From positions 1 to 41,024 of the IMG/VR virus record IMGVR_UViG_3300047678_000436: 41,024 bases of DNA. One strand, given 5' to 3'. The stretch comes from a virus. Positions 6,775 through 38,275 of this stretch are shown piece by piece; within the stretch, counting starts at the first letter, position 1; each line of letters opens with the position of its first letter. The translations under genes were made by a program, and so were the position numbers. Below the pieces are notes generated by a model. It worked only from the letters and a program-made list of their open reading frames with translations. It was not told the DNA's origin and did not search any database.

Positions 6775-7333
6775 AACTCCCAAAAAAGTGCATATGCAAA
6801 ACATAACCGTTGGCCGCGCCATTTCGGCGATCGAGAGACGGCGCGAAACGTTGAAAATCAGCCGCGCGGCGCTGTGTCGGGCGGCCGGTGTCGACCCGGT
6901 CACCTATTTTCGGGTGACGAGCGGCCGCACAAAAAATCTTCAAAGGCAAACGCTCGACGCCCTCGACGCGGCGCTCGATGCGCTTGCAGGGCGGCCGCCG
7001 CCACCGCCGCTCGCCGTCATCGCCGCCTTCCACCGATCGGCGATGATCGAGCTGGCGCGGGCGCAGAAGCTCGACCCGGAGGCGGTCCTCGCCGCGGATT
7101 TCTCAAAGCAGAACTCGGTCAACCGCGCCTGGCTGGCGGCGGCGCGCGTCCGGCGCATGGCGATGTATGTGACGGTGACGAGCCTCGCGATCTCGTCATC
7201 GGCGCTCGCCCGCGCCATCGGCGTCACGAAACAGAATGTCGGCCAGGCACTGGCCCAGATCGAGGATCTTCGCGACGCGGAGACGATCGATCGCTTGCTC
7301 GACGACGTCACGAGACTTCTCACAGGACGCTGA
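6752..7333 (+). CDS. Two-HTH DNA-binding protein, candidate replication initiator
   Basis: A 193-residue protein. Residues about 20-75 are an XRE-type HTH (AALCRAAGVDPVTYFRVTSG). Residues about 130-180 form a second HTH: MAMYVTVTSLAISSSALARA then IGVTKQNVGQALAQIED, which resembles the arrangement of DnaA domain IV (AMYL, then a HTH, then a helix with KIE). The N-terminal HTH is followed by a Pro-rich linker (RPPPPPL). It directly precedes the primase-helicase gene, and iteron repeats lie just after that gene, so binding the origin is a reasonable hypothesis; a CII-type activator is the alternative. The start at 6752 follows the G-run; a start at 6794 is possible. Confidence 0.65.
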   Translation: MLALRAPETPKKVHMQNITVGRAISAIERRRETLKISRAALCRAAGVDPVTYFRVTSGRTKNLQRQTLDALDAALDALAGRPPPPPLAVIAAFHRSAMIELARAQKLDPEAVLAADFSKQNSVNRAWLAAARVRRMAMYVTVTSLAISSSALARAIGVTKQNVGQALAQIEDLRDAETIDRLLDDVTRLLTGR

Positions 7334-7340
7334 CAACCGA

Positions 7341-11699: not shown

Positions 11700-13292
11700 T
11701 TGACCGAGGGGCTCGACTTCGGCTCGCTCAACGACGTGCTGCGGCAGAGCTCCGCGGCGCGGAACCTTGCCAGCTGGGATCCAAAGGCCGTCAAGGCGCA
11801 GCACCTCGGCGAGACCCTCAATCTCCTCGACAGCGCCGGCCCGATTTCCGACGCCTACATCGTCGGTTCGGATCCGGTGGCCGTGATCGAAGGGCCGCAA
11901 GGGTCGGGGAAGACCGTCGCCAGCGTCAAGAAAGCGCTCTACTCGGCGCAGCGCATGCTGCCGACCGCGCGGGACGCCCAGGGGCGGCCGCTCCGCCGCT
12001 ATGTCCTCTCGATCTGGCGGGAAAAGTTCGAGGATCTGTGGAACGCCACGATCCCGAGCTGGTGGACGATCTTCCCGAAAGACATGCCCGGCAGCGAGTG
12101 GGTCGGGGCGCGGCCGCGGCGGGCAACGCACGTCATCAATTTCGAGGATGGCTGGGGGCCGGTGCAGCTGACCGCGGCCTTCATGGCCTTCGGCGACGTC
12201 GCCAACCCCGAGGACCTTCGCGGCCTGCAGTTCACCGACGCCTATCTCAACGAAATCGACACGATGCCGGAGGACCTCTTCACCTACCTCGTCGGCCGCG
12301 TCGGCCGCGACCCGCCGCCCGAGGTGATGAAGCGGAACGGCCGGCTCTTCGGCGACGAGAACGCGCCGGACGTGATGAAGTGGACCTATCGGGATTTCCA
12401 CGACGTCAAAAAGGACGGCTACCGGCTCTATCGGCAGCCGGGCGGGTTGAGCCCCCAGGCCGAGAACAAGCGCGCAATCGGCGTCGGCTACTACCAGAAC
12501 CAGATGCGGATCAACGCCCACAAGAAGTGGTGGATCAAGCGCATGGTCCACAACATTCCGGGCATGACGCGCGGCCTCAACCTGGTGCAGGAAAAGTACG
12601 ACGACGACACCATGGTTTCGGAGACGCCGCTCGAGGTGTTCCGCGAATTGCCGGTGCTCGTCGGCATCGACGGCGGCTTCACCCCGGCGGCGACCTATTG
12701 CCAGGAGGCGCCGGACGGGCAGGGCCGCACCCTGGCGGAGATCGCGCTCGAGCGCGGCGGCATGGAAGAGCTCGGCGCTGCGATGCTGGCGGTGGAGGCG
12801 CAGCCCCGGTTCCGCGGCTGCGAATTCGTCGACCGCTGCGACCCGTCGATGACCGCGGGCGAGGACAACGCCAGCGGTGCCGCGCTCGAGAAGGGATCCG
12901 ACCGCCAGCGCTTGTCGAAGGTGATAGGGCGGGAAGTCGTTGCCGCCTCGACGAACGTGCCGAGCCGGCGGCACGCGGCGGTCGGCGACAAGATCGGCCT
13001 CAATCTCGGCCCCGGCCGACCTGGCTACATCCTCGATCCGAGCTGCAGGATCCTCAGGCGCGCGAAACAGCAGACCTATCACTTCCTCCACACCAAGGGC
13101 ACGAACGACCTGGCGCGCGTCGCCAAGACCTTCGACAGCCATGTCAGCGAGGCGGAGGAATACGCCTATCTGGAAATGGGTTCCGACGTCGCGCGGAAGC
13201 GGAAGAGCGACGTGCAGCGCGCGCGGGAAGCCAAGCGGCAGGAGAGCCGGCACGCCGGGCGCTACAATCCCTTCGCCAGGGCCGGCCGATGA
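11700..13292 (+). CDS. Terminase large subunit
   Basis: A 530-residue packaging motor. The ATPase part has Walker A GPQGSGKT (65-72), a Walker B-type AYLNEID (181-187) and a coupling region. The C-terminal RNase H-like nuclease shows its first acidic residue in LVGIDGG (Asp324), a second around CDPSMTAG (Asp381), and an EAEEYAYLEMG end piece. It pumps DNA into the prohead and cuts the concatemer. The start appears to be the TTG at 11700, since no ATG or GTG fits, with a G-rich stretch upstream. It overlaps the next gene by ATGA. Confidence 0.92.
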   Translation: MTEGLDFGSLNDVLRQSSAARNLASWDPKAVKAQHLGETLNLLDSAGPISDAYIVGSDPVAVIEGPQGSGKTVASVKKALYSAQRMLPTARDAQGRPLRRYVLSIWREKFEDLWNATIPSWWTIFPKDMPGSEWVGARPRRATHVINFEDGWGPVQLTAAFMAFGDVANPEDLRGLQFTDAYLNEIDTMPEDLFTYLVGRVGRDPPPEVMKRNGRLFGDENAPDVMKWTYRDFHDVKKDGYRLYRQPGGLSPQAENKRAIGVGYYQNQMRINAHKKWWIKRMVHNIPGMTRGLNLVQEKYDDDTMVSETPLEVFRELPVLVGIDGGFTPAATYCQEAPDGQGRTLAEIALERGGMEELGAAMLAVEAQPRFRGCEFVDRCDPSMTAGEDNASGAALEKGSDRQRLSKVIGREVVAASTNVPSRRHAAVGDKIGLNLGPGRPGYILDPSCRILRRAKQQTYHFLHTKGTNDLARVAKTFDSHVSEAEEYAYLEMGSDVARKRKSDVQRAREAKRQESRHAGRYNPFARAGR

Positions 13293-13783
13293 TCGTTCGC
13301 GGCGCCGTCGACGACGACATCCGGCATATCTGCCGGAACCTTCGGCCCGAGGATCGGCACGAGCAGCTTGCCACGAGGTGGAGCGACGACGTCGACGAGC
13401 TCGCCGCCGAGATCATCGAATGGCGACGCCTGGCGATCCGCGAGGTGGCGCTGTGCTGCGATGACGGCGAGGCGACGATCCTCCTCGGCATCTACCTCAT
13501 CGCGCCGGAAGTGGCGCGCTTCAACATGTGCGCGACGACACGGCTTCCCGAGATCGCCAGGGCGGCGCACCGCTGGGCGCGACGGTTTATCCCCGCCGTG
13601 CTGGGGCCAACTGTCAGCGTGGCGGAAACCCGTCTCCTTGCCGAACACACCTATGCGCGCCGCTGGGTGGCGACGTTCGGCTTCGTGGAGGAGGGGATCC
13701 ACCGCCGGCGCGGCAATCGCGGCGAGGACCTCGTCACCATCGCCTGGATCAATCCGGAGCGGCAGAATGTGCTTCCAGCCTGA
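13289..13783 (+). CDS. T7 gp13-like / GNAT-fold virion-associated protein
   Basis: A 164-residue protein starting MIVRGAVDDDIRHICRNLRP. The layout resembles the small acyltransferase-fold proteins of T7-like phages (gp13, DUF2833): an N-terminal NLRPEDRHE helix, a sheet with VALCCDDGEATILLGIY, helices, and a final strand FGFVEEGIHRRRGNRGED typical of the GNAT C-terminus. A catalytic or acceptor role is not established for that family. It lies between terminase and portal and overlaps both neighbours. Confidence 0.7.
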   Translation: MIVRGAVDDDIRHICRNLRPEDRHEQLATRWSDDVDELAAEIIEWRRLAIREVALCCDDGEATILLGIYLIAPEVARFNMCATTRLPEIARAAHRWARRFIPAVLGPTVSVAETRLLAEHTYARRWVATFGFVEEGIHRRRGNRGEDLVTIAWINPERQNVLPA

Positions 13784-21739: not shown

Positions 21740-22330
21740 ATGTGCACCGGCCTCGAGATCCTCGCCGTCGCCGGCAGCGTCGGCGGCAGCCTCCTCAAGG
21801 GCTTCTCCGGATCGAGCGCGGCGAAGCTCAACCAGAAGGTCGCCAACTCGAACGCGCGCATCCTCGAGAAGACGGCGGCGGTGCAGCGCATCGGCGCCGA
21901 CCTGGCGGTGACCCGCGCCGGCTTCGAGGAGACGCGGAAGCGGTCCGAGGTGGAGCGCGTCATCGGCGCCGCGAAAACCTACTACGCATCGCGGAGCCTC
22001 GACCCGACGGTCGGCTCGCCGCTTCTCATCGCCGGCATCACCGCGGCGCAGGGCGAAGTCGACGCCGGCATCATCCGCGCCAACGGCGCGACCGAGCGGG
22101 CCGAGCGGCTCGGCCAGGTGGCGAGCACGCTCGGCAACGCGGCGGCGTCGCGCTGGCAGGCAGCGCAGGCCGAGGCGGACAGCTCGACCTCGCTCCTCTC
22201 CGGCGTCCTCGGCGCCGGCACGGCGCTCCTCGGCGGTCTCAGCAAATGGCCGGGGCTCGAAATGGGCGGCAGCGTCGGCGGCGTCATCGGCGCGCCGATG
22301 GACATCCGCCCACCCGCGTTTCAGTTCTGA
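21740..22330 (+). CDS. Internal virion protein (T7 gp14-like)
   Basis: A 196-residue protein. A hydrophobic Gly-rich N-terminus (AVAGSVGGSLLKGFSGSS) is followed by a long alanine-rich helix region (ERVIGAAKTYYASRSLDPTV, SPLLIAGITAAQGEVDAGII). It sits between the tail B protein and the larger internal proteins. In T7 the corresponding protein is ejected and helps form a channel through the outer membrane. Confidence 0.75.
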   Translation: MCTGLEILAVAGSVGGSLLKGFSGSSAAKLNQKVANSNARILEKTAAVQRIGADLAVTRAGFEETRKRSEVERVIGAAKTYYASRSLDPTVGSPLLIAGITAAQGEVDAGIIRANGATERAERLGQVASTLGNAAASRWQAAQAEADSSTSLLSGVLGAGTALLGGLSKWPGLEMGGSVGGVIGAPMDIRPPAFQF

Positions 22331-22339
22331 GGAGGCGAC

Positions 22340-24925
22340 ATGCCGGCGCCGATCTATTTCAGCGAGACACCGCCGGCGGCGATCGCCGACGTGCGGATCC
22401 AGCCGCAGGCGTTGCCGAACTTTACCGGCGTCCGTTTCGGCGAAGTGCTCACCGCCGGCGCCGAGTTTGTCGGCGCGCTTGCCGCCGGCCAGGCCGAAAC
22501 GCGGAAGGCGAAGGCGACCAGCGGCTATCTCACGGAGCTCGCCGCGCTCGAGGACAGCTACGCGCAGGACCCTGACTACCAGAACGCCCCGCTCCGCTTC
22601 GACGCGGCGGCGAGCGAGCTGAGGGCGAAGTATCTCAACGACGCCAAGCTCGGCGCGGCCGATCAGGCGCAGCTCGACCTCACCTTCAACCGGATGCAGG
22701 TATCGAGCGCCGGCGGCGTCAAGGCGAAGGCGCTGGCGCGCGAGGCCGCCGACAATGCCGCGGCGCTCGACGGCCTGCAGCTCACCCTGTCCCGCCAGGC
22801 GGCGGCATCGGGCAGCCCGACCGAGCGGGCCGCCTATACCGCGCAATTCGAGGAGCGCGTCGGCGGCGCCGTCCGCAGCGGCTGGATCCCGGCAACCGCC
22901 GGCGAGAACTACCTGCAGAAATTCCGCTCGACCCTCGACGAGGCCGACATCCTGGCGGGCATCCAGACGAACCCGGCGGCGATCGCCGCGGCGCTCGACC
23001 AGCCCGACAGCTTCGCCTCGCTCGATCCGGTGACGCGGGCACGCTATCGCGCGATCGCCGCCGGCGAGGCCGACCAGGCGGGCATCGACGCCCTCGGCTT
23101 CACCGCCGAGACGAACCCGGCCGCGGCGATGCTGACCCTCAATCGCATCATCGACCCGAAGGTGGCGACGGACGTTTTCGACCGCGGCATCATCGTGCAG
23201 GAGAGCGGCGGTGACGCCGGCGCCGTCAGTCCGAAGGGCGCCCTCGGCGTCAGCCAGGTCATGCCCGAGACGGCGCGCGACATGGCACGGTTGCTCGGGC
23301 GGAAGGACATCGCCGCCCTCGGCGACGCCGACCTGAAGAAGACGCTCCTCGCCGATCCGCTCCTCAACCGCCAGCTCGGCCTCGCCTACTGGAACCAGCA
23401 GCTCGAGCGGTTCGACGGCAACGCCGCCCTGGCGCTCGCCGCCTACAATGCCGGCCCGGCGAACGCCGACCGCTGGCAGGCGAAGGCGATCGCCGAGTTT
23501 GGCGCGGATTTCACGCCGGCCGAGCTGGTCAGCGTCATCAGCTACGGCGAGACGCAGGACTACGTCATGAAGGTGTTCGGCCATGTCGGCGCCGACATCG
23601 CCGGCGCCGGGCTGACACCGCACGGGAGGGCGCGCGCGTGGAGCGCCGTCGAGACGGCGACCGCCGGCGCCAACAACGAGCGGCTGAAGGCGATCAGGGA
23701 CATGGCCGCGCTCGAGCGCGACGCCACCGATCCGCTCGACATGATCAAGGCCGGGCTGCGCGTCGACGACGGCACGACGGCCGCCTACATCGCGACGCAG
23801 CGCCAGGCGGCGGCCGCCGGCGATCGCGAGGCGGCGAAGGAGGTGCAGCGGGCCGAGACGATGCTGGCGATGAAGCCGATCGTCGATGAGGCATGGACGC
23901 AACCCGTGACAGAAACGCGGGCGATGCTGCAGGCGGCCGAGACGGCGCTCGCCGACAATCCGAGCCCCGAGCTCGCTGACCGCGTCGCGGTGCTGCGCGA
24001 AGTGACCGACGAGATCGAGAAGAAGCGGAACGACGATCCGATCGCGCTTGGCGTCCGGGCAGGGCGGTTCCGCGAGGTGACGCTCGATCCGAACGCCCCG
24101 GCGAACGACCGCGGCTTCGCCAATGCGCTTCTCTATCGCGGCAACCAGGCGATCGACGCGGCCGCGCATTTCGGCGGCAAGGTGCTGCCCTTCCACCCGG
24201 CCGAGGCCTCGGCGATCAAGGACCGGCTGGCAAAGGCCCCGGAGGGCGAAAAGCTGGCGGTGCTGACCACCATGGCCGGCGCGATGAGCAAGCCGGCCTT
24301 TCGTGCGGCAATCGGTCAGCTCGAGCTCGATCCGTTGACCGAGGCCGCGGCCATCTTCGGCGTCGAGCGGCCGGGCCTGGCGCGCCAGATCCTGCACGGC
24401 GCCGAGCTCCTCAAATCCGAGGGCGTCGCCAAGCCGGCGAAAGAGTTGCGCGAGGCGCTCGGCAATGCGGTCGGCGGCGAGCTGTGGCCCGACCCGCAGA
24501 TGCTCGACGCGGTCGCGAGCGCCGCGACGGCGGTCTATGTCGCGGCGCGCGGCGGCAACGCCTCGCTCTTCGACGCCGATGACGCCGGCGCGCTCGAGGA
24601 AGCGATCGAGGCGGTGACCGGGCCGATCGTATCGCGAAACGGCGTCAAGGTCCCGGCGCCGCCGTCGATGACGGCGGATGCCTTCGAGGCGCGCCTCGAC
24701 GCGCTCACCGACCAGGACCTCGACAGGTTCGGCGGCGCCGTCGACCGCACCGGCCGAGCGATGACCGGAGAGACGATCGCCGGCTACGGGATCCTCCGAT
24801 CGCTGACACCTGGCGGCAGCCGCTACGTCGTCGGCATGCCGTCCTCGTCGGCGCCGGACGGCTTCGCGCCCGTCCTCACCAAGGCCGGCCGGCCCCTGGT
24901 CATCGACATGGCGACGATGCCATGA
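22340..24925 (+). CDS. Internal virion protein with lytic transglycosylase domain
   Basis: An 861-residue protein with a strong ribosome binding site (GAGGAGG). Residues about 275-415 are an SLT-type lytic transglycosylase: catalytic Glu288 in IIVQESGG, GALGVSQVMPETA, AYNAGPANADRW and SYGETQDYVMKVFG, all in the right order. The rest is long helices without other motifs. The enzyme cuts peptidoglycan so that the ejected tail extension can cross the wall. In T7 this activity is on gp16, while here it is on the first of three large internal proteins. Confidence 0.9.
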   Translation: MPAPIYFSETPPAAIADVRIQPQALPNFTGVRFGEVLTAGAEFVGALAAGQAETRKAKATSGYLTELAALEDSYAQDPDYQNAPLRFDAAASELRAKYLNDAKLGAADQAQLDLTFNRMQVSSAGGVKAKALAREAADNAAALDGLQLTLSRQAAASGSPTERAAYTAQFEERVGGAVRSGWIPATAGENYLQKFRSTLDEADILAGIQTNPAAIAAALDQPDSFASLDPVTRARYRAIAAGEADQAGIDALGFTAETNPAAAMLTLNRIIDPKVATDVFDRGIIVQESGGDAGAVSPKGALGVSQVMPETARDMARLLGRKDIAALGDADLKKTLLADPLLNRQLGLAYWNQQLERFDGNAALALAAYNAGPANADRWQAKAIAEFGADFTPAELVSVISYGETQDYVMKVFGHVGADIAGAGLTPHGRARAWSAVETATAGANNERLKAIRDMAALERDATDPLDMIKAGLRVDDGTTAAYIATQRQAAAAGDREAAKEVQRAETMLAMKPIVDEAWTQPVTETRAMLQAAETALADNPSPELADRVAVLREVTDEIEKKRNDDPIALGVRAGRFREVTLDPNAPANDRGFANALLYRGNQAIDAAAHFGGKVLPFHPAEASAIKDRLAKAPEGEKLAVLTTMAGAMSKPAFRAAIGQLELDPLTEAAAIFGVERPGLARQILHGAELLKSEGVAKPAKELREALGNAVGGELWPDPQMLDAVASAATAVYVAARGGNASLFDADDAGALEEAIEAVTGPIVSRNGVKVPAPPSMTADAFEARLDALTDQDLDRFGGAVDRTGRAMTGETIAGYGILRSLTPGGSRYVVGMPSSSAPDGFAPVLTKAGRPLVIDMATMP

Positions 24926-27900
24926 CCGACTGGCAGACCGCCGAGAACGCCTATCTCGACGAGCTGGCGACGCGACCCGCAGCGCGGCCGCCGGCGACGA
25001 TCGGCGAGATATGGTCGGCGAGCTGGGGCGCCGCCGGGCTCGACACGATGTTCGGCTCGCACGCCGTCACCGACGATGCCTTGCGCGAGTATCGCGAAGC
25101 GGTGGAGCACGCCACGGGCAAGAGCCTCGTCCAGCTCGCCGGCGAACAGGGGCGCCAGGCGGCGATCTATGCCGGCCACCACAGCGAGGAAGACGAGGCC
25201 GCCGTGCTCGGCGCCGCCCTCGGCACGGTCGATCCGGAGACCCGCCAGCACCTGGTGCAGCTTTCGGACTACCGCAAGCGCGCGGCGGAGAAGGCGGCGC
25301 TCCTCGAGCGTCGCGCCGCCGACGTCGGCGAAGGCACCTACACCTTCGGCGGACAGGCCGTGTCCTTCATCGCCGGCCTGGCGCGGGTCGCGGTCGACCC
25401 CGTCAACCTCGTGACGACGGTGTTCGGCGGACCGCTGAAGGGTCCGGTCCTGAAGATGCTCGGCCGCGAGGCGCTCATCGGCGCCGGCGCGCAGGCGATC
25501 CAGGAGCCGGCGATCGAGACCGAGCGGGCGCGCCTCGGCCTCGAGAGCGGCCTCGGCCGCGCCGCCGCGAACATCGGCATGGCCGCCGGCGGCGCCGCGG
25601 GCCTCTCGCTCGTCTTCCGTGGCGCCGCTGCGGGCTTGCGCCGGCTTCGCGGCAGCGGCGAACGACCGCCGCCGCTCGACGGCGTGACGCCGGAGGATTT
25701 CGACGCGGCGGCGCTGCACGCCGAGCGGGATGAACTCGTCGACGCGCTGGCGGCGCCGCCGACGCCGGCGGGCCGGGCGCGCTCGGCCGAGAAAGTCGAC
25801 GCCGCGGCGGTAGCCATCGAGGGCGGCCGGACGCTCGCCGAAGATACGGCGCCGGCGCCGGCCATCGCCGGTGACATCTTCGGCCCGCCGCGGCCCGATC
25901 CGACGCTGACCTTCCAGCCGAAGCGCATCGTCTACTTCGACGGGGCGCGCGAGACGATCATCCGGCCGGGCGGCGCTCGTATGACCGTGCGGCCGGCGGT
26001 GATCGAGCTCAGCGACCTCATCGTCAGCCATTCGATCGACGGCAAACCGAACGCCAGCTATCCGGCGGCGCTGCAGCCGCGCGACCGCGAGGCCGCGGCG
26101 TCGCGATCGTTCATCGCCGAGCGTGCCGCCGAGCTCGAGCCCGAGCTCCTCGGCGCCTCGCCGACGGCGGCCGAGGGCGCGCCGATCGCCGGGCCGGACG
26201 GCGTCATCGAAAGCGGCAACGGCCGCACGATGATGATCGCGCGGGCCTACGATCGTCATCCGGAGCGCGCCGCGGCCTATCGCGGCTTCCTCGAGCAGCA
26301 GGGCTACGATCTCGAGGGCTTCGAGTTTCCGGTCCTGGTCCGCATCCGCGAGGGCGACCTGGCGGACCGGGCCGCCTTCGCCCGCGAAGCGAACATCTCG
26401 CCCATCGCCGGCATGTCGGCGCGCGAGCGGGCGTTCGCCGATGCGAAGCGCCTCGACGATCACATGCTGGCGCTGTGGCAGCCGGGCGAGACGTCGTCCC
26501 TCGCCAACGCGAAGTTCGTGCGTGCCTTTGCCGAGCGCGTCGTCGCGCCGGAGGAGCGGCCGCAATTCGTCTCGGCCGACAATCGGCTTTCGGCGGACGG
26601 CGCGGCGCGGGTCGAGGCGGCGCTCGTCGCGCGGGCCTGGGGCGAGCAGGACATCGTCTCGGCGCTCTACGAAGCCGCGGCGCCGACGTCGAAGGCGATC
26701 CTCGGCGCGCTCGCCGACACGGCGCCGATGGCGGCGCGGCTGAAGCTGGCGATCGCCGAGGATCGCGTGCCGGCAGCGAGCGACGTCACGGGGGACATCA
26801 TTGCGGCGTTTCGCATCGTCGAGCGAGCGCGGGCCGAGCGGTTGCCCGCGACGTCGCTCCTCGACCAGGTCGACCTCGAGCGTGGCGCCGTACCCGAAAA
26901 GGTGCGGCGCGCCGCCGAGCTCTTCTTCCGCGAGGACAAGGAAGGGCGCGATCCGTTCTTCATGCCGGCCGGCCGCGAGCTAATCGCGGCGCGGATCGAC
27001 GCGGCGATCGGCAAGGCGATCGACCAGCAGAACGCCGTCGGCGATCTCTTCGGTGGCGAGCTCGACAGCGGCGGCATCCTCCGGGCGGCGAAGCTCGCCG
27101 GCGAGGACCTCGGCGACCAGGTGCTGCCGCCGCCGAACGACCTCGTCTCGGCCGAGAGTTTCCTGCGTCAGCCGTTCGAGACGATCGACGAGCTCTATGT
27201 CCATGTCGCGGCCCACCAGGCCGAGCTCGACACGATCGGCAAGGCGATCGCGGCCGAGCTGGGGATCGAGTTCAAGACGACGGGACCGAAGGCCCGTGCC
27301 ACCGCCGAGGCGAAGCTGGCGCGCAAGGGCTACAAGTCCGCGGCGCAGCTCACCGACGTCGTCCGCGCCGGCCTCGTCGTGGCGACGCCCGACCAGGCCG
27401 ACCAGGCAATCGCGCTCCTCACCCGGCATTTCGATGTGCTCGACGAGGGCTGGGTGCGGACGCCGGCGGGCTATCTCGACCGCAAGGCGATGGTGCGCTT
27501 CGCGGATGGCATGGTCGGCGAGGTCCAGTTCTGGGAGCCGAACCTTTTCGCGGCAAAGAAGGCGAGCGGATCAAAGCTCTACACGGAAGCACGCGCCCTC
27601 GACGCGCGCGACCCGCGCCACATCGAGCTCAACCGGCAGATGGAAGAGCTCTACTCGGCGGCGCTCGCATCGGCGGCGCCGGCCTGGGCGGTGTTGGGGA
27701 GATCCAGCACGCCGAACCTTGCCTCGAAGGTGCTGCGCCAGTTGTCCTCACGCAGCACCCGGCCGCTATCGGCAACTTCGGCAGGGTTGACCAGGGTCCA
27801 AGGCTCGCCAGGAGCGAGGACGGCGAAGGCGGCGGGCACCGACCAGTCGATGACGGCGGGCCGCAGCTCCCAGTTGACGAAGACCATCGGCGCTTCTCCT

Positions 27901-28149
27901 GACCCCGAAATAAGCGCGTCGCCGGCGGAAGGCAAGGGCGTTGTCGGCGATCCGGCGATCGCCAGCGAGGCGACGCGGATCCTCGACGAGGCCGGTGGCG
28001 ATTTCGAGATCGTCGTCCCCGGCGATGACGGCACGCCCATGAAGGTATCGGCGCGCGCGTCGATCGCCGAGGCCGAGGAGGACGCGGCGGCCGCCGGCGA
28101 GCTCTTCGCCTGCATCGGCGCGACCGCGGCAAGGGAGACGGCAGCATGA
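24922..28149 (+). CDS. Polyvalent-type internal virion protein with ParB/DdrB-like and RelA/SpoT-like domains
   Basis: A 1075-residue protein in the internal virion position. The N-terminal third is helical with hydrophobic stretches. About 331-640 is a ParB-like domain of the DdrB type: RIVYFDGARETIIRPGG, VSHSIDGKPNASYP, GVIESGNGRTMMIARAYD and SADNRLSADGAARVEAAL. About 750-913 resembles a RelA/SpoT nucleotidyltransferase: KLARKGYKSAAQLTDVVRAG, GYLDRKAMVRF, GEVQFWEPNLFAAK and KLYTEAR. Such multi-domain proteins are called polyvalent proteins and are thought to act in the host after injection. About 925-989 is Ser/Thr/Arg-rich and reads like a linker; it overlaps a coding-looking minus-strand gene. 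The end (about 990-1075) is normal again. It overlaps both neighbours by ATGA. Confidence 0.8.
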   Translation: MTDWQTAENAYLDELATRPAARPPATIGEIWSASWGAAGLDTMFGSHAVTDDALREYREAVEHATGKSLVQLAGEQGRQAAIYAGHHSEEDEAAVLGAALGTVDPETRQHLVQLSDYRKRAAEKAALLERRAADVGEGTYTFGGQAVSFIAGLARVAVDPVNLVTTVFGGPLKGPVLKMLGREALIGAGAQAIQEPAIETERARLGLESGLGRAAANIGMAAGGAAGLSLVFRGAAAGLRRLRGSGERPPPLDGVTPEDFDAAALHAERDELVDALAAPPTPAGRARSAEKVDAAAVAIEGGRTLAEDTAPAPAIAGDIFGPPRPDPTLTFQPKRIVYFDGARETIIRPGGARMTVRPAVIELSDLIVSHSIDGKPNASYPAALQPRDREAAASRSFIAERAAELEPELLGASPTAAEGAPIAGPDGVIESGNGRTMMIARAYDRHPERAAAYRGFLEQQGYDLEGFEFPVLVRIREGDLADRAAFAREANISPIAGMSARERAFADAKRLDDHMLALWQPGETSSLANAKFVRAFAERVVAPEERPQFVSADNRLSADGAARVEAALVARAWGEQDIVSALYEAAAPTSKAILGALADTAPMAARLKLAIAEDRVPAASDVTGDIIAAFRIVERARAERLPATSLLDQVDLERGAVPEKVRRAAELFFREDKEGRDPFFMPAGRELIAARIDAAIGKAIDQQNAVGDLFGGELDSGGILRAAKLAGEDLGDQVLPPPNDLVSAESFLRQPFETIDELYVHVAAHQAELDTIGKAIAAELGIEFKTTGPKARATAEAKLARKGYKSAAQLTDVVRAGLVVATPDQADQAIALLTRHFDVLDEGWVRTPAGYLDRKAMVRFADGMVGEVQFWEPNLFAAKKASGSKLYTEARALDARDPRHIELNRQMEELYSAALASAAPAWAVLGRSSTPNLASKVLRQLSSRSTRPLSATSAGLTRVQGSPGARTAKAAGTDQSMTAGRSSQLTKTIGASPDPEISASPAEGKGVVGDPAIASEATRILDEAGGDFEIVVPGDDGTPMKVSARASIAEAEEDAAAAGELFACIGATAARETAA
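27651..27887 (-). CDS. Antisense 78-residue gene nested in the polyvalent gene
   Basis: On the strand opposite to its surroundings, an ATG at 27887 follows AGGAGA nine bases upstream, a strong ribosome binding site. The 78-residue product begins MVFVNWELRPAVIDWSVPAA, continues with APGEPWTLVNPAEVADSGRV and WRSTFEARFGVLDL, and ends in an Ala-rich tail. Codons almost all end in G or C, as in true genes here, whereas the plus-strand frame through the same bases uses AGA, TCA, CTA, ATA and other A/T-ending codons and encodes Ser/Thr/Arg-rich sequence. Four Trp residues and an even composition also favour real coding. The function is unknown and no family is recognised. Confidence 0.65.
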   Translation of the reverse strand: MVFVNWELRPAVIDWSVPAAFAVLAPGEPWTLVNPAEVADSGRVLREDNWRSTFEARFGVLDLPNTAQAGAADASAAE

Positions 28150-30752
28150 CGGCAAGACGATGCTTCACCAGCAAGGTCGCCGCCGGCGTCGTCTCGCAGC
28201 GCGCCGGGCAGAAGATCCTCGACATGATCGACGGCCTCGAGAAGCACCACCGGGGCAAGATCGGCAGCGCCGCCGGCGCCGTAAAGGCTGCCGCCGAAGC
28301 CGGCGAGGCGGCGATGCTGGCGGCTTCGCGGCGCGCCGACCTGGTCCGCCGATCGGCGATCGCGCAGGCGAACGTGCTGCGCTCGTTCAAGGTCTATGAC
28401 GACCTCATGGGCGACCTCAAGCGCCAGGGCAAGGCGCCGCTCATGGTGCAGCTCGCCGCGAAGCGCATCGGCGCGGCGCCGTCGCCGCTCAACGCCGCAA
28501 TGCGCTCGATGCTCGCCCGGGACCCGCACGAGATCGCGACCTGGTCGAACGCCTTCTACCTCGCCCGCGACATCCGCGGCCGCGCCCACGCCAAGTTCGC
28601 CGAGGCGATCGAGTTCCTGCGGCCGAAGGCCCTCGGCTTCAAGGCCGAGCTCGCCCGCGAGCTCGAGGTGCTGCGCGCGCTCTACGGCAAGACCGACGTC
28701 GACCCCGAGGTGCGGGCCGTCGCCGAGGCATGGGGGGCGAAGGAAGGCGTCGCCGAGGATCTGCGGCTGCAGTTCGTCGACGCCGGCGGCGCCTTGCCGG
28801 AGCGGAAAAACTGGCGCCTGCCGAACCCGACGATCGACGACGCCAAGGTGCGCGCCCTCGGGCCGGAGAAGTTCAAGGAGCTGGTCCGCGCCCATGCCGA
28901 CCGGCCGGCGATGATCGATTTCGAGACCGACCTGCCGATGACCGACGCGCGCTTCGAGAAGCTCCTCGAGGAGGCCACAAGCGGCTTTCTCTCGGGCCAC
29001 GTCGACGGGCTGCCATCGGCGGCGCCGCGCGGCCGGCCGATGCTCGCCAACAGCCGCGATTTTCCCCGGTTCTTCGTCTGGAAATCGGCGGAGAGCTGGC
29101 TGGCGATCGCCGACCAGGTCGGCACGCACAACTCGGTCTATGAGGCGATGACCGGCCACATTCACGACATGGCGCGCGACGTCGCCATGATGCGGATCTT
29201 TGGCCCGAACCCGGAGGCGACGAAGCGCTTCATCCTCGACCTCTTCGCCCGCGAGCCCGGCCGCCTGCAGCTGTCCGCCGAGGAAGCCGGCCAGAGCCTC
29301 AAGCGCGCCGTCAAGACCAACCGCCGGCTCGACGCCTCGACCCGGCGCCAGGTGCGATCGTTCGAGGGGCTTTGGGCCGAGGTAACCGGCGCCAACCGCA
29401 TTCCGGTCGACGCCGAGCTCGGCAAGACGGTCGGCGACGTCCGCTCGGCGCTGGTCGCGGCGCAAATGGGATCGGCGATCATCGCCTCGCTCAGCGACAC
29501 GGTGACGACGACGATGGCGGCGCGCTTCGCCGGCTTGCCCGTCATGAACGTCCTCGGCCGCGCCGCGGCGATGATGAGCGAGAAGGGCGCCGAAATCTTC
29601 TCGGCCCAGCAGGGGCTGATCGCCGACAGCATCGGCCAGGCGATGGGCTCGGCCGACCGCATCATGGGCGAGACGATCCGCACCGGGACGATCGCCAAGA
29701 TGGGCAGCGCGGTCATCCGCGCCTCGGGGCTCCGGCGCTGGACGGCGACGCTTCGCAACGCCTTCGGCCTCGAAATGATGGCGCATGTCGCGCGCGAGCG
29801 GGAGACGGCATTCGCCCAACTCGATCCGACCTTCCGCCAGGCGCTTGCCCGGCACGGCATCGACGAGGCGGACTGGAAGGTAATCGCCGCGGCCGAGCCG
29901 AACGAGCCGCGGCCGAACGCCCTGTTTACCCGGCCGATGGACGTCGCCGAGGCGGGGACGCCGGCGGCCCGGGCCGCGTCGGAAAAGCTCGCCAAGCTCA
30001 TCCACACCGAAATGGACTATGCCGTCATCGAGAACGACGCGATCGCGCGGGCGGTCCTCGTCGGCGACAGCCGGCCGGGCACGGCATGGGGCGAGATCCG
30101 GCGCGGCTTCGGCTTCTACCGGAATTTCACGACGAGCTTCATCGCGCTCCACTTCGCCCGCGCCTTCGCCCGCGGCTTCGACGGGCAGCGGCTGACGCAC
30201 GGCGCGCTCACCTTCCTCGGCATGACTGCCATGGGAGCGCTTTCGCTGCAGGCGAAGCAGCTCCTGCAGGGGCGCGATCCGTACTCCTTCGACCCGACGA
30301 CGAGCAATGGTTTACGCGCCTTCGGCGCCAGCATCCTGCAGGGCGGCGGGCTCGGCGTCTTCGGCGACATCTTCTTCGTCGACAAGACCCGATACGGCAA
30401 CTCCTGGGCCACGATCGTCGCTGGCCCGCAAATGTCGGCGATCGAAAGCGTGCTTGGCGATTTCCTCATCCGCAACTTCCAGCGCCTGGCGCAGGGCGAG
30501 GAGACGCATTTCCTCGGGGACGCGCTCTACATCGGGGCGCGCTACACGCCCGGCGCCTCGCTCTGGTACATGCGCCTCGCCTTCCAGCGGGCGATCGTTG
30601 ACCAGCTCGCCAGGATGATCGACCCGCGCGCGTCCGACCGCTTCCGGCGGATGGAAAAGCTGGCGCGGAAGAATTGGGGACAGGAGTTCTGGTGGGCGCC
30701 CGGCGAGGCGACGCCGTCTCGTGTCCCGGCGATCGTCGGAGCCGCGCCATGA
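28146..30752 (+). CDS. Large internal virion protein (T7 gp16-like position)
   Basis: An 868-residue protein, mostly helical, overlapping the preceding gene by ATGA. It contains FYLARDIRGRAHAKFAEAIE, WKSAESWLAIADQVGTHNSV, HDMARDVAMMRIFGPNPEAT, a hydrophobic stretch FGFYRNFTTSFIALHFARAF, and near the end FGASILQGGGLGVFGDIFF. No transglycosylase motif is visible. Together with the two preceding proteins it would form the ejectosome that carries DNA into the cell; this follows from its place before the tail fibre and from similar prophage proteins. Confidence 0.75.
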   Translation: MTARRCFTSKVAAGVVSQRAGQKILDMIDGLEKHHRGKIGSAAGAVKAAAEAGEAAMLAASRRADLVRRSAIAQANVLRSFKVYDDLMGDLKRQGKAPLMVQLAAKRIGAAPSPLNAAMRSMLARDPHEIATWSNAFYLARDIRGRAHAKFAEAIEFLRPKALGFKAELARELEVLRALYGKTDVDPEVRAVAEAWGAKEGVAEDLRLQFVDAGGALPERKNWRLPNPTIDDAKVRALGPEKFKELVRAHADRPAMIDFETDLPMTDARFEKLLEEATSGFLSGHVDGLPSAAPRGRPMLANSRDFPRFFVWKSAESWLAIADQVGTHNSVYEAMTGHIHDMARDVAMMRIFGPNPEATKRFILDLFAREPGRLQLSAEEAGQSLKRAVKTNRRLDASTRRQVRSFEGLWAEVTGANRIPVDAELGKTVGDVRSALVAAQMGSAIIASLSDTVTTTMAARFAGLPVMNVLGRAAAMMSEKGAEIFSAQQGLIADSIGQAMGSADRIMGETIRTGTIAKMGSAVIRASGLRRWTATLRNAFGLEMMAHVARERETAFAQLDPTFRQALARHGIDEADWKVIAAAEPNEPRPNALFTRPMDVAEAGTPAARAASEKLAKLIHTEMDYAVIENDAIARAVLVGDSRPGTAWGEIRRGFGFYRNFTTSFIALHFARAFARGFDGQRLTHGALTFLGMTAMGALSLQAKQLLQGRDPYSFDPTTSNGLRAFGASILQGGGLGVFGDIFFVDKTRYGNSWATIVAGPQMSAIESVLGDFLIRNFQRLAQGEETHFLGDALYIGARYTPGASLWYMRLAFQRAIVDQLARMIDPRASDRFRRMEKLARKNWGQEFWWAPGEATPSRVPAIVGAAP

Positions 30753-33115: not shown

Positions 33116-34780
33116 ATGCTGCCCAGGGGACCACTCCTCAGCGCCATCCTCGTCAACGGCAACGGCGAGCCGTTCGCCGTGCCGCAGGAGAGCGACGACG
33201 GCCGGGGCGTCGCGCTCGGGGCCGTCCACCCGCTGATGCTCGTCGACAAGAATGGCAGGGGCGTCGACCTCGCCACGCTCTTCGGCGGCGTGCCGCCGGT
33301 CTCGAGCGTGTTCGGCCGCACCGGCGCCGTCGTCGCGGCAGCGGGCGACTATGACGCCTCAGAGGTCGGCAACGACAGCGATGCGCCGGGCAGCTCGATC
33401 GCCGACGTCCTCAACTATCTCCTCGAGGCGCCGTTCACCAGCGCCCGCGATCCTCGCTTCGGCATCGTCGGCGACGGCGTCGCGGACGACACCGCCGCCA
33501 TCCAGGCGCTCCTCGACTATTGCTTCGGCCCGGCCGGCTCGCCGCACGGCACCAACTCGCGTCTCAACAAGCAATGCTATTTCCCGCCGGGGATCTACAA
33601 GGTCACAGCCAAGCTCACCCTGACCCGGATCCGGGGCGGGCGTATCTTCGGCGCCGGCCGGTTCGCGACGCGGATCGTCACGACGTCGACCACCGAGCCG
33701 ATCTTCGAGACCAACGGCTTCGAGTATTCCTTCGTCCACGGCATGGAGCTGCGCGGCGTTTCGACGACGCCGCGGCTCCTCGACCTGTCATGGGACAACG
33801 GCGCCGGGCCGGCCCTCCAGTCCAACACCTTCTTCGACCTCTATTTCGACACTGCGGTCATCGGCATCGACATCGGCCGCGGCGGGTTCATGGGGTCGGA
33901 GAACCACTTCATCCAGGTCTTCGTCGCCAACTGCACGACCGCCGGCATCAAGACCAGCAACTTCAATGCCCTGCAGCAGGGCATGTGGGGCGGCAACATC
34001 GCCGGCTGCGCCATCGGCATCTGGGTCGCGTCCGGTTCATTCCCGACCGTCATCGGCACCGGCTTCCAGAATGGCACCGGCGTCGACTTCAAGCAGGTCA
34101 ACACGGCGCGCGACACCGTCGAGCTGATCGGCTGCCGGACGGAAAGCCTGAGCTTCTATTCCGCGACCGGAAATCCGATCACGGCCAGCCTCCGCGGCTG
34201 CAGCCAGCTTAACGCGACGCTCGGCAACTTCGCCGAGGGCGGCGGCAAGACGACGGTGGTCAACTGCGACAGCCAGAACGGCACGTGCAACCTGCACGCC
34301 GGCATCGTCGAGAATTCGATCTTCGGCGCCACCAACCCCTTCCCGGCCGGCTTCTTCGGAGCAACCTCCTATCTCGAGGTGCGCCGCTGCAACATCGGCA
34401 GCGGGCCGACCCGGATCGAACGCCGGCGCTACGAGTTTGTCTCGGCCGGCGTCGGCATGGCCTATGACTGGACGGATCGCGTCAACGAATTCACCGGCTC
34501 CGGCGACATCACGCTCGCCGGCGAGCGCACCGTCCTCGTCAACAAGGCGGCCGGCGCCGCGACCGCCATCATTCTCGGCACCGCGGCGGCGCGGAACATG
34601 CTGCCGATCACGGTCAAGGATCTGAAGGGCGACGCGGCGGCGAACAACATCACCTTCACGGTGAGCGGCGGCGAACTGGTCGACGGCCTCGCCGCCTCGA
34701 ACTTCACCATCGACGAGAACTACGGGTCGCTCACGCTCTATCCGAAGCGCGGCGGCGGCGCCTGGTACACCCTGCAATGA
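33116..34780 (+). CDS. Tailspike, pectate-lyase-like beta-helix
   Basis: A 554-residue protein with a very strong ribosome binding site (GGAGGAG). The N-terminal part has SSVFGRTGAVVAAAGDYDAS (63-82), a linker motif of fibre proteins. VGDGVADDTAAIQALLDYC (118-136) and YFPPGIYKV mark the start of a right-handed beta-helix of the Pectate_lyase_3 type, which runs to about 450 with Asn- and Gly-rich turns. The C-terminal 100 residues form another beta domain. Such spikes bind, and often cut, surface polysaccharide. Catalytic residues cannot be chosen from the sequence. Confidence 0.85.
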   Translation: MLPRGPLLSAILVNGNGEPFAVPQESDDGRGVALGAVHPLMLVDKNGRGVDLATLFGGVPPVSSVFGRTGAVVAAAGDYDASEVGNDSDAPGSSIADVLNYLLEAPFTSARDPRFGIVGDGVADDTAAIQALLDYCFGPAGSPHGTNSRLNKQCYFPPGIYKVTAKLTLTRIRGGRIFGAGRFATRIVTTSTTEPIFETNGFEYSFVHGMELRGVSTTPRLLDLSWDNGAGPALQSNTFFDLYFDTAVIGIDIGRGGFMGSENHFIQVFVANCTTAGIKTSNFNALQQGMWGGNIAGCAIGIWVASGSFPTVIGTGFQNGTGVDFKQVNTARDTVELIGCRTESLSFYSATGNPITASLRGCSQLNATLGNFAEGGGKTTVVNCDSQNGTCNLHAGIVENSIFGATNPFPAGFFGATSYLEVRRCNIGSGPTRIERRRYEFVSAGVGMAYDWTDRVNEFTGSGDITLAGERTVLVNKAAGAATAIILGTAAARNMLPITVKDLKGDAAANNITFTVSGGELVDGLAASNFTIDENYGSLTLYPKRGGGAWYTLQ

Positions 34781-34787
34781 GGACACC

Positions 34788-35075
34788 ATGAGCAAGAGCA
34801 TCGCCGAACTCGCCGCCGACCTGGCGGCGGCCCTCGAGACCGACATGGAGGAGGGCCAGCTGGCCGCCCGCGCCGACGCCCTGCAGTCGGAGGCCGCCGC
34901 GCTGCGCGACCAGATCCGGGAGGCGTCGCGCGCCTCCTACGGCAAGGGGCCGGAGGCGGGTGTCCCTGCCTTGCCGACGCCCGAGCTCGAGGCGATCGAG
35001 GCGGAGCTGCAGACGATCCAGGACAAGCAGAAGGCTTTCCTCGCCGCGCGGAAGCTCGCCGAGGGGGCGAAGTGA
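34788..35075 (+). CDS. Coiled-coil small protein
   Basis: A 95-residue protein made of two heptad-type helices (SIAELAADLAAALETDMEEG to RDQIREASRA, and LEAIEAELQTIQDKQKAFLA) joined by a Gly/Pro loop. GAGGA precedes the ATG. It lies between tailspike and secreted-type genes and could be a fibre chaperone or a small structural part. No family is recognised. Confidence 0.6.
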   Translation: MSKSIAELAADLAAALETDMEEGQLAARADALQSEAAALRDQIREASRASYGKGPEAGVPALPTPELEAIEAELQTIQDKQKAFLAARKLAEGAK

Positions 35076-36316
35076 TGCGCGCCCTTCGCCTCGCCGCCTT
35101 CGCCGTCGCGATCTGCGCCGCGCCGCCGGCCTTCGCCGCGTGCACCGGGCAACCCGGCGCCAACGTCATCTGCGCCACGGGCAACTCCGGCGGGCTGTTC
35201 GACGGCCGGACGCTGAGCAGCATCATCACCAGCCTGACCGACCTTTCGGCCGTGGCGCTCGACGATCGCGCCGTGGTGACCGACACCTCGGCATCGGCGG
35301 CGCCAAAGGATGCCACGGTCCAGGCGATCCTCGAGGCTTTCGTCAACGCGGCGGCGGTCACCTCGTTCGGCTCGGGCGACAAGTTCCCGTGCAGCGAGGC
35401 CGGCACGCTGAAACTCTGCGACTACACCGACCTGCCCGCCGGCGGCGGCTCGGGCGATGTGTCGGCGGCTTCCAACTTCGGCACCGACAACGTCCTCATC
35501 CGATCGGACGGCACGTCGAAGGGCGTCCAGTCGACCGGCATCACGGTCGCCGACACGACGAACGACACGTCGGGCATCGGCTCGATCACGCCGGCGAGCG
35601 GCAGCGGGATCCGCACTGCGACCTCGGCCGGCAACACGCTTCTCCTGCAGGCGCGCGACGTCGACGGCGCCGCCTATACGACCTTCTGCACGCTCACGGC
35701 GAACAACACGCCGACCATGGGCTGCACCAACCTGGCACTGACGACGCCGGCGCTGGGCACGCCGGCAAGCGGAACGCTGACCAATGCGACAGGGCTGCCG
35801 GTGACGACGGGCCTGACCGCGGGCAACTGGAAAGTCTTCTACTCGAACGGCTCGGGCGTCCTGGTCGAGCTGGCGCTCGGCTCGTCGGGGCAGGTGCTGC
35901 AGTCGAACGGGGCGACCTCGGCGCCGACCTTCGTGACGCCGTCCGGCGGCGTCGCTGGCGTTACCTTCTCGGCAAACATCGTGCTGAACGGCGGCGGCTC
36001 GGTTATCCCAACCGGCATCGCCGGCGACATCCAGTTCGATTACGCCGCCACCATCACCGGCGTCACGATGCTCTGCGACCAGACCGGCTCGATCGTTGTC
36101 GACGTCTGGAAGGACAGTTACGCAAACTACCCGCCGACCGTCGCCGACACCATCACCGCCGCGGCCAAGCCGACCGTCTCGGCCGCCGTCAAGTCGCAGG
36201 ACACGACGCTGACCGGCTGGACCACATCGGTGACGGCCGGCGACAGCATCCGCTTCAACGTCGACAGCGCCTCATCGGTGACGCGCTGCACGCTGGCAAT
36301 CAAGCACACGAGGTAG
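35075..36316 (+). CDS. Fibre-like protein with signal peptide
   Basis: A 413-residue protein. The first 22 residues (MRALRLAAFAVAICAAPPAF then AA) form a signal peptide with a cleavage site after AFA, unusual for a virion part. The middle has the fibre motif ALGSSGQVLQSNGATSAPTF. The last 110 residues (GGGSVIPTGIAGDIQFDYAA, then VVDVWKDSYANYPPTVADTI and RFNVDSASSVTRCTL) form a beta-sandwich domain familiar from phage and prophage surface proteins. Start: ATG at 35075, overlapping the upstream stop by one base (TGATG). Confidence 0.75.
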   Translation: MRALRLAAFAVAICAAPPAFAACTGQPGANVICATGNSGGLFDGRTLSSIITSLTDLSAVALDDRAVVTDTSASAAPKDATVQAILEAFVNAAAVTSFGSGDKFPCSEAGTLKLCDYTDLPAGGGSGDVSAASNFGTDNVLIRSDGTSKGVQSTGITVADTTNDTSGIGSITPASGSGIRTATSAGNTLLLQARDVDGAAYTTFCTLTANNTPTMGCTNLALTTPALGTPASGTLTNATGLPVTTGLTAGNWKVFYSNGSGVLVELALGSSGQVLQSNGATSAPTFVTPSGGVAGVTFSANIVLNGGGSVIPTGIAGDIQFDYAATITGVTMLCDQTGSIVVDVWKDSYANYPPTVADTITAAAKPTVSAAVKSQDTTLTGWTTSVTAGDSIRFNVDSASSVTRCTLAIKHTR

Positions 36317-36320
36317 GCCG

Positions 36321-36860
36321 ATGCGCTTCGCTTTCATCGCGGCGAGCGCCGCCGCCGTCCTCGTCATGCCGGCCCTCGCCGAGGAGCGCGTCAACTGCGA
36401 CATGAAGCAGTTTCTTGAGCCGGGCAGTGCGGGCATCGTCAAGGACGTGACCTTCATCGACTGCAAGTGGCCGCCTCTCACCCATCCGGTGGCGATCTTC
36501 GCTGAGGGATCGAGCGGGATCGTCGTCAAGGGCAACCCGACGCCGCGCAATGTCATCTTCCCCCCGGACACCAACGCCGGGCCAATCGAGGACGCGGCGC
36601 GGACCGACGTGTTTTTCCTGAAGGAGGGCGACTTTGTTTCGGAGTTGCCGCCGGAAAAGGTCGAGGCGTTCCGGACAGGCGAAGCGGACGTGGCTAAGGA
36701 GAAGGCCGACGCGGTCTTCATCCCGATCAACCAGAGCGCTGATGATCCGGCCGGCAAGTTCTTCATCACCGACCGGGCTGGCCGCAAGTCGATGACCGAG
36801 GTCACTCGGCAGGAGGCCGAGGTGATTAAGGATATTCAGGTCGAGGAGGTCGAAAAGTGA
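36321..36860 (+). CDS. Secreted-type protein, unknown
   Basis: A 179-residue protein with an N-terminal signal peptide (MRFAFIAASAAAVLVMPALA, cleavage before EERV). It has two cysteines (VNCDMKQ, FIDCKWP) that could form a disulphide, an acidic, Phe-containing middle and a charged end (QEAEVIKDIQVEEVEK). Codon use is somewhat less GC-rich than in the head genes. No family is recognised. Translation is coupled to the next gene. Confidence 0.6.
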   Translation: MRFAFIAASAAAVLVMPALAEERVNCDMKQFLEPGSAGIVKDVTFIDCKWPPLTHPVAIFAEGSSGIVVKGNPTPRNVIFPPDTNAGPIEDAARTDVFFLKEGDFVSELPPEKVEAFRTGEADVAKEKADAVFIPINQSADDPAGKFFITDRAGRKSMTEVTRQEAEVIKDIQVEEVEK

Positions 36861-38275
36861 AGCGCCTCATTCTTGCTCTCGGACTGCTGGTCAGCCTTGC
36901 GGCTGGCGCTTCCGCCGCTGATATTTATTTCGACACAGGCGGATGCCAGACTGGCTCGACGACCCTCTGCTCGGGCACGACCGACAGCGCCTCAGCGACG
37001 GTCTCCGGCTCCGCAGCGACGATCACCTGCTCCGCTACCGATGGCCCGTCCTCTGCGCCGGGGTGCCTGATTGGCGGTTCTCCGGCTTTGACCGGCTTCG
37101 CTACGGATGGTTCGCAGGCGATATTTCTCAACGCTGCGACCAACTCTAACCAGAAGATTTTCTTCATCAACGCTGTGGACGATGCGGCTGATCGCGTTGG
37201 CACCACGGTCACACCTACCGGGCTGACCGCCACCTCCTCCGATTGGGGCATCGGCGGCCGGATGATCTACAACTCGGCGAATTGGGAAGCGGCAGCGAGA
37301 GCGGGGGATACGTTCTGGTTCAACAACACGCCGGCGTCAAAGGCGGCAGACTTTCTGACCAAGCGCACAAACGGAAGCAATGCCGGATACATTCGCGTGG
37401 TCGGCAAGACAGGTGTGCGCCCTGTTCTGCAAGTGACGAACACCAATCAAGTTATCGATGGAGGCGCGTCATATTGGTGGTTTGAAAATTTAGAGTTCGA
37501 TCAGGACGGCGCGTCTGGCGCTGTCGTTAATAGCGGCGCCGCGAATAATTTTGTCAACATTAAGTGGTCTGACGGTGGAGGGGCCGGGCTAGCTCTCAGC
37601 AACGCCGACTTTAACCGAGTTCTATCTTCGGAGATTTTCTTAGGGACTACGTCAGGCGACGGAATTAGCGCTACGTCTGGTGGGTCTCAGGGGTTAACCG
37701 TTATTGGAACATACATCCATGAAAACGGCGGCGACGGCATTGACCTAGGTAATTCGGACGGCGGTCCTGTAACAATTTTGAATTCCATAGTAAGCGCCAA
37801 TATAGCTAGGGGGATATATCAATCAGCTGCTTTTTCAACTCGCGGGCCGTTCGTAGTCTCCAATAGCACTGTAGCGTCCAATGGAAATTCCGGGCTAGAG
37901 GTAACAGATGCCGACAGTCCGTTTTTTATAACCAACACCATTTTTTATAACAACGGTGATGCCGCAGGGGAATATAATGCTGAATGGACGACCAGCACGG
38001 CGGAAACTATCGGCTGGCACGCCTACAACGACTTCTACCAGAGCGGTGGCGGCGGCGCGGGCAACGTCTCTGGCCTCACCATCAACGCCACCGAAGTCAC
38101 GACCGACCCGCTATTTGTGGACGCAGCCAATGGCGATTTCCGCCTGCGCGCCGGCAGCCCGGCGCGGCTGAGCGGCTTCCCCGGTTCGCTTCTCGGCGGG
38201 TCCACCGGCTACATGGACATGGGCGCGGTTCAGGCGCGGCCGCCGGTCGGCATGGGCATCCTGTCGATCCGGTAG
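36857..38275 (+). CDS. Secreted-type right-handed beta-helix protein
   Basis: A 472-residue protein starting with GTG, GTGA overlap, after GGAGG. Residues 1-21 (MKRLILALGLLVSLAAGASA) are a signal peptide. About 140-420 is a parallel beta-helix with short repeated strands such as YWWFENLEFDQDG, FNRVLSSEIFLGT, LTVIGTYIHENGG and VTILNSIVSANIARGIY, followed by the DPLFVD...DFRLRAGSPA end typical of such proteins. The helix part (about 37440-37990) is markedly AT-richer and uses TTA, ATA and AGG codons absent elsewhere, so it was probably acquired recently. It could be a second spike or a secreted surface enzyme. Confidence 0.75.
   Translation: MKRLILALGLLVSLAAGASAADIYFDTGGCQTGSTTLCSGTTDSASATVSGSAATITCSATDGPSSAPGCLIGGSPALTGFATDGSQAIFLNAATNSNQKIFFINAVDDAADRVGTTVTPTGLTATSSDWGIGGRMIYNSANWEAAARAGDTFWFNNTPASKAADFLTKRTNGSNAGYIRVVGKTGVRPVLQVTNTNQVIDGGASYWWFENLEFDQDGASGAVVNSGAANNFVNIKWSDGGGAGLALSNADFNRVLSSEIFLGTTSGDGISATSGGSQGLTVIGTYIHENGGDGIDLGNSDGGPVTILNSIVSANIARGIYQSAAFSTRGPFVVSNSTVASNGNSGLEVTDADSPFFITNTIFYNNGDAAGEYNAEWTTSTAETIGWHAYNDFYQSGGGGAGNVSGLTINATEVTTDPLFVDAANGDFRLRAGSPARLSGFPGSLLGGSTGYMDMGAVQARPPVGMGILSIR

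Follow-up and report, generated by a model that had tools for sequence, protein, structure and literature searches.

The viral record IMGVR_UViG_3300047678_000436, of which positions 1 to 41,024 were analyzed (41,024 nt; hereafter the window), contains a virion gene that encodes a predicted toxin domain on one strand and a predicted immunity protein on the other. The sense gene (24922..28149, + strand) starts with ATG and was assigned from the open reading frame (ORF) call and from its position among ejection-type genes. Its 1075-amino acid product is laid out as an N-terminal region, a DdrB-like ParB domain (residues 351-476; 25972..26349, +), a RelA/SpoT-homolog (RSH) pyrophosphokinase domain that is the predicted toxin (residues 741-927; 27142..27702, +), an apparently dual-coding linker, and a conserved C-terminal tail (27889..28146, +; motif GDFEIVVPGDDGTPMKVSAR...LFACIGA) alignable to those of other proteins carrying a nested gene. 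The antisense gene, which went unnoticed in the initial annotation, occupies 27651..27887 on the minus strand, opposite sense residues ~910-989. It is predicted to encode an immunity protein of 78 amino acids (MVFVNWELRPAV...ASAAE) and ends in a TAG stop at 27651-27653. At the 3′ end, the antisense gene runs into the part that encodes the last RSH helix, and the rest of it is antisense to the linker beyond. A Shine-Dalgarno (SD) sequence, AGGAG (27896..27900, −), lies 8 nt before the antisense ATG (27885-27887), and no terminator was found near the gene in the window.

The initial annotation had proposed from short motifs that ParB/DdrB-like and RelA/SpoT-like domains are combined in this one protein, and both domains proved to be real. 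All of the quoted motifs are present and in order, with SGNGRTMMIARAYD in the ParB domain ahead of LTDVVRAG, GYLDRK, and GEVQF in the RSH domain. Pfam PF18763 (ddrB-ParB) matches the ParB domain at E 5e-29, with 101.3 bits against a gathering cutoff of 27.6, and tblastn alignments at 31-38% identity connect it with phage P1 DdrB and with hypothetical phage proteins, among them those of Acinetobacter phages. The RSH domain was missed by single-sequence Pfam and PDB searches and is assigned from profiles, an AF2 model, and VIA structural alignment. A profile from three IMG/VR relatives matches Tas1 (PDB 6ox6) at 1.5e-8, and a 23-sequence family profile matches 6ox6 Tas1 at E 1.8e-18 and SaEAS (8vx3) at 2e-4. 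For the AF2 model built on the family alignment (predicted local distance difference test, pLDDT, 94.7; predicted template modeling score, pTM, 0.89), the significant Foldseek matches in the PDB are RSH synthetases, with Tas1 first (E 5e-8). VIA-align superimposes the model on Tas1 (6ox6_A) over 163 residues with a Z of 16.1 and a root-mean-square deviation (rmsd) of 2.8, and on RelP/RelQ-type synthetases with Z 14-15. The three RSH motifs hold D812, R815, Y851, E867, and Q869, of which D812, R815, E867, and Q869 correspond to D121, R124, E182, and Q184 of SaEAS; the catalytic residues of Apk1 and SaEAS were named by Ahmad et al. (PMC12691689). D812 and R815 are conserved in all 47 family members that cover the site (47/47), E867 in 49/49, and Q869 in 48/49, and the Asn/His of the GY motif (Apk1 N370, RelSeq H312) is Lys in 43/49. 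With the SYNTH fold and the catalytic residues kept, 3′-pyrophosphokinase activity is predicted from the model. The RSH and ParB matches on which the initial annotation had staked its proposal were thus both found, and the nucleotide-binding residues that it called for are kept, as judged by profiles, by AF2 with Foldseek and VIA, and by alignment.

An S/T/P-rich stretch following the RSH domain is conserved among otherwise unrelated carriers because, as a six-frame reading reveals, its complement encodes the small protein. A conserved AGRPSQ motif of the sense protein, located past the RSH domain, was considered as a virion protease site and ruled out, since in the six-frame view it is the reverse reading of the antisense DWxGRPA motif. 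The antisense family has the consensus MxFxNWEGRPAVxxxxxAFAVLxPGxDWxxVD, with W(D/E)GRPA, AWAV, and W motifs in a 19-sequence alignment; its products are mostly acidic by isoelectric point (pI), and it has no match in Pfam or PHROGs. An AF2 model of the antisense product is a small alpha/beta protein (pLDDT 86.7; 55 of the 78 residues at 90 or above) without a clear match in the PDB or BFVD.

Several features of the nested copies bear on whether the antisense frame codes. An SD sequence of at least 5 nt precedes 17 of 23 nested starts compared with 0.9% of control positions chosen by the same rule, the 23 loci being related to one another, so that a P value for this difference comes out too small. 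Scored with a hidden Markov model built from non-nested copies only, 19/23 nested copies outscore all 500 sense-synonymous shuffles, whereas in the mirrored test on the sense linker all shuffles are beaten in only 3/23. A single phase is shared by 23/23 nested cases, with the wobble positions of both genes facing each other, and this coincidence makes the shuffle test conservative. Tyr is found at 4/1736 positions in nested copies versus 21/754 in free copies (P 3.5e-8), and His and Gln are likewise depleted; a need to keep the sense frame open would lead to such depletion, as in this phase Tyr codons tend to create sense stops. The sense linker is rich in S/T/P/A and is missing where the antisense gene is not nested. 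Past the nested gene, most nested carriers share a comparable C-terminal motif, which supports translation of the sense frame across the overlap. Taken together, the SD sites, the shuffle tests, and the scarcity of Tyr point to dual coding at the level of sequence.

The linkage looked for between a toxin and its immunity gene was found in both directions. Among 49 RSH loci, which form 29 clusters at 80% identity, the small gene is present at 47, and when viral contigs were searched using only the antisense family, 28 loci came back, of which 26 have an RSH domain within 1 kilobase on either strand; 6 of the 28 are contigs already found by the RSH search. The 47 loci comprise 40 with a nested antisense gene, 3 with convergent genes, and 4 with a same-strand gene downstream. 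Counted by the 27 clusters carrying both genes, which are not fully independent and derive from IMG/VR records that may be fragments, the layouts are 21 nested, 3 tail-to-tail, and 3 separate, same-strand, and downstream. At the convergent loci (L016, L028, and L031) the overlap is 0 to 43 bases in the scan. The same-strand genes follow an ORF that ends in the RSH domain at L029 (two tandem domains), L058, L061 (three copies), and L064, an order that is the usual layout for immunity genes. The RSH domain and the antisense gene also insert as one cassette: residues 1134-1422 of the L001 protein (~289 amino acids) stand in place of 5-6 residues in UOF77750 and Klebsiella QBQ71875, and gp16-like homologs of L001 in Klebsiella and Escherichia phages of the annotated phage collection have no RSH/antisense cassette. 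In L056 and L057, which are relatives of L003, the RSH core has been lost and something like its last helix is left, while the antisense gene is intact; no RSH domain was found elsewhere in these whole records, which are possibly fragments. Immunity genes typically show these traits: tandem duplication, a mostly acidic pI, and persistence when the toxin is lost. A tree of the RSH domains requires at least four changes of layout, and its branching does not settle whether the nested or the free arrangement came first.

The proteins that carry the RSH domain are diverse. Internal virion proteins related to phrog_342 (L001, L008), polyvalent proteins with DdrB-ParB (L006, L011, L012, L013), and polyvalent proteins of other types (L010, L014, L018, L027) are represented, as are a portal protein (L031) and a portal/MuF-like head protein (L028); the carriers at L003 and L016 have no family match. 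L013 (8957-16588), L014 (8060-16768), and L017 (8222-15667) encode giant polyvalent proteins (2500-2900 amino acids) in which about 1600 to 2000 sense-frame residues come after the nested antisense gene. At L008, two extra copies of the immunity domain besides the nested one share a single long frame (11853-13454, −), which lies past the RSH gene on the other strand; the set resembles a duplicated or decaying immunity array. At L029 (9753-10892), only part of an RSH domain lies in frame, through truncation or a frameshift, and the same-strand, two-domain immunity ORF comes next, possibly a case of toxin decay with the immunity gene retained.

A search of genome contigs found nothing with the single 1075-amino acid sequence and two genomes with the profile. 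The phage collection yielded no RSH relative of the family and no immunity relative, and plasmids yielded no immunity relative; isolates are therefore scarce. Among 385 genomes of the class of Rhodoblastus, the RSH domain occurs in only 4 and the immunity gene in 1. Two distant RSH loci in genomes of this class (L054, L055) have no immunity homolog and fall outside the family in the tree. Rhodoblastus acidophilus DSM 137 (L030/L003) is a named, cultured strain with an intact nested RSH/immunity locus, which makes it usable as a laboratory system.

The RSH fold and active site, the conserved antisense coding gene, linkage in three layouts, the joint cassette, and retention after toxin loss are the computed basis for our interpretation. 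We consider it probable that the RSH domain is a toxin delivered by the virion and that its immunity gene is encoded antisense inside the toxin gene. The domain would be a nucleotide pyrophosphokinase resembling Tas1/Apk1, carried as toxin cargo by a virion protein on the DNA-exit path, and would enter the recipient along with the phage DNA. Once there, it may pyrophosphorylate a nucleotide (ATP/ADP or GTP/GDP), or possibly tRNA, leading to cell arrest, with (p)ppApp, (p)ppGpp, or modified tRNA as the candidate products. The opposite-strand product of ~75 amino acids would bind and inhibit the RSH enzyme, and one stretch of DNA would serve as a virion linker in one direction and as an immunity protein in the other. 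Since the late operon runs in the opposite direction, the immunity gene could be expressed in a lysogen while the virion gene is silent, a timing that we infer, and its product would shield lysogens and producing cells from the same toxin of related phages. The initial annotation had suggested that the phage injects an enzyme that makes or uses a modified nucleotide at the start of infection; the RSH fold and catalytic residues are partial support for this, but the notion that it acts alone overlooks the conserved partner gene on the opposite strand.

A number of observations weigh against the toxin-immunity interpretation. The antisense model weakly resembles Tis1 (6ox6_B by VIA-align: Z 3.0, rmsd 3.2, 57/76 residues, rank 4), and this speaks for the interpretation in that Tis1 is the immunity partner of Tas1, the best match of the RSH domain, but the match is tied with unrelated SH3-like folds such as PWWP and MazF; the antisense product has no sequence match to Tis1 or IapK. 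An alarmone hydrolase (PF13328, Aph1) is absent from the window and from 15 related records, which are possibly fragments. In the window, no promoter of the sigma-70 type was seen ahead of the antisense gene. With wobble positions facing each other, the sense protein largely dictates the antisense protein, shuffled copies score well above zero (a mean of 30-40 bits in close relatives), and 4/23 nested copies (L012, L018, L026, L027) fail to outscore all of their shuffles. Finally, the sequence gives no reason for a phage to deliver an enzyme that arrests the very cell it has just entered.

One scheme for the nested pair, which we regard as unlikely, is retaliation at the time of entry. All infected cells would receive the toxin and only surviving incoming DNA would yield the antisense immunity protein; hosts that destroy the DNA by restriction or CRISPR would be arrested and established lysogens spared, and late sense mRNA would silence the immunity gene by convergent transcription while virions load the toxin. 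Somewhat less probable is that the RSH domain is a host-takeover enzyme, providing at entry an alarmone pulse that quiets host transcription, with the antisense protein as a timing regulator or chaperone. Iyer et al. proposed host takeover for DdrB-ParB and RelA/SpoT domains in injected polyvalent proteins (PMC5512222), and RSH domains are indeed located here in internal virion and polyvalent proteins. The domain is closest, however, to bactericidal Tas1/Apk1 and not to housekeeping synthetases, tandem downstream copies stand in the classical toxin-immunity order (L061, L029), and the antisense orphan persists after toxin loss in L056/L057, which would be surprising for a regulator whose enzyme is gone. 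It is very improbable that the antisense ORF is no gene at all and that its apparent conservation arises from a conserved sense linker and coinciding wobble positions in a GC-rich genome. Sense-synonymous shuffles do retain much of the antisense similarity, and the antisense frame of the window is open for 886 codons, so its openness is uninformative. Yet free homologs overlap no virion ORF (two at L029, one at L058, three at L061, and one at L064) or only a few bases of one (L016, L031), the SD sites are placed at the nested starts, and the asymmetry of the shuffle tests, the orphan copy in L056/L057, and the loss of the S/T/P/A-rich linker where the gene is not nested all speak for a gene. 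Least probable of all is a functional antisense RNA damping the late gene, to whose mRNA the small gene is entirely antisense, as the protein family is also found in sense orientation (L029, L058, L061, L064), where it is unable to pair with RSH mRNA, and its amino acid conservation exceeds the constraint from the sense protein.

RelA/SpoT domains in MuF and polyvalent proteins have already been described (PMC3482391, PMC5512222), and what is new here is the antisense gene family and its nested layout. The pairing of DdrB-ParB with RelA/SpoT in phage proteins thought to be injected, for example in Helicobacter prophages, was reported by Iyer et al. 2017 (PMC5512222), whose RelA/SpoT domains come from spirochaete and epsilon-proteobacterial (pro)phages and MuF proteins; the term "immunity protein" is absent from that text. 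Also closely related are the Apk2 MuF polymorphic toxins of temperate phages, with laboratory-tested IapK and Aph1 immunity (PMC12226406). As in Apk2, an RSH synthetase is fused to a temperate-phage virion protein next to a small linked immunity gene, and L028 is itself a portal/MuF-like fusion. In contrast to Apk2, the carriers here are mainly ejection, polyvalent, and gp16-like proteins, the RSH domain is usually internal rather than C-terminal, a nested antisense position is usual for the immunity gene, no hydrolase was found, and the immunity family has no counterpart in Pfam or PHROGs. Tas1/Apk1-Tis1 is a type VI secretion effector system of Pseudomonas aeruginosa (6ox6; PMC12691689). Its RSH domain is the closest in sequence and fold, with Apk1 R330, E382, and the Gln conserved, but the carrier here is a phage virion protein, the N370 position is mostly Lys, and the immunity gene is antisense. 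For bacteriocins, an immunity gene encoded on the other strand is known downstream of the toxin gene (PMC5358913), whereas the toxin-bearing gene here continues through the immunity gene. Antisense overlapping protein genes are known in prokaryotes (PMC7457138), as are the overlapping exclusion genes of phage Fc02 in superinfection exclusion (PMC9936078). Both strands of one stretch code for protein there, as appears to be the case here; no toxin-immunity relation was reported for them, and here conservation across lineages and free homologs support function. A literature search that covered few subscription journals found no immunity family of this type and no antisense immunity gene nested in a toxin-bearing gene.

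If the toxin-immunity interpretation is true, a toxin would have its antidote on the complementary strand of the toxin-bearing gene, an arrangement conserved in more than 20 phage lineages, and the antisense family would be an undescribed candidate immunity family for RSH toxins. Alarmone toxins borne by virions would then be known from ejection-type as well as MuF proteins, and antisense-nested immunity genes would escape gene callers. The functionality of prokaryotic antisense-embedded proteins is an open question (PMC7457138) that would be testable here with the free homologs as controls.

The remaining features of the window place the locus in its phage setting. A tail protein (phrog_376) is followed by a gp14-like internal virion protein (21740..22330, +; phrog_418, E 6e-13), a gp15-like virion protein with a transglycosylase (SLT) domain (22340..24925, +; Pfam SLT, E 2e-18; phrog_992, E 8e-25), the 1075-amino acid gene, and a gp16-like virion structural protein (28146..30752, +; phrog_684, E 9e-138). 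The gp14-, gp15-, and gp16-like genes of a T7-like ejectosome are therefore present in order, with the 1075-amino acid gene before the gp16-like gene, in agreement with the ejection-protein position that the initial annotation had assigned to it. Several unrelated effector domains within one large protein at a late virion locus are what is found in polyvalent proteins, and the reading as an injected polyvalent protein fits the gene order by analogy with Iyer et al. 2017 (PMC5512222); neither Pfam nor PHROGs gave a MuF or head-morphogenesis match in this protein. The temperate lifestyle that had been suggested is likewise upheld, as an integrase (446-1882, −) adjoins a tRNA-Lys (61-136). A 1043-amino acid Prim-Pol protein (7236-10367, +; PF09250) probably serves the temperate podophage in replication. 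Likely tail spikes, of the pectate-lyase-like and right-handed beta-helix types, are encoded at 33116-38275 (+), ahead of a lysozyme at 38319-39158.

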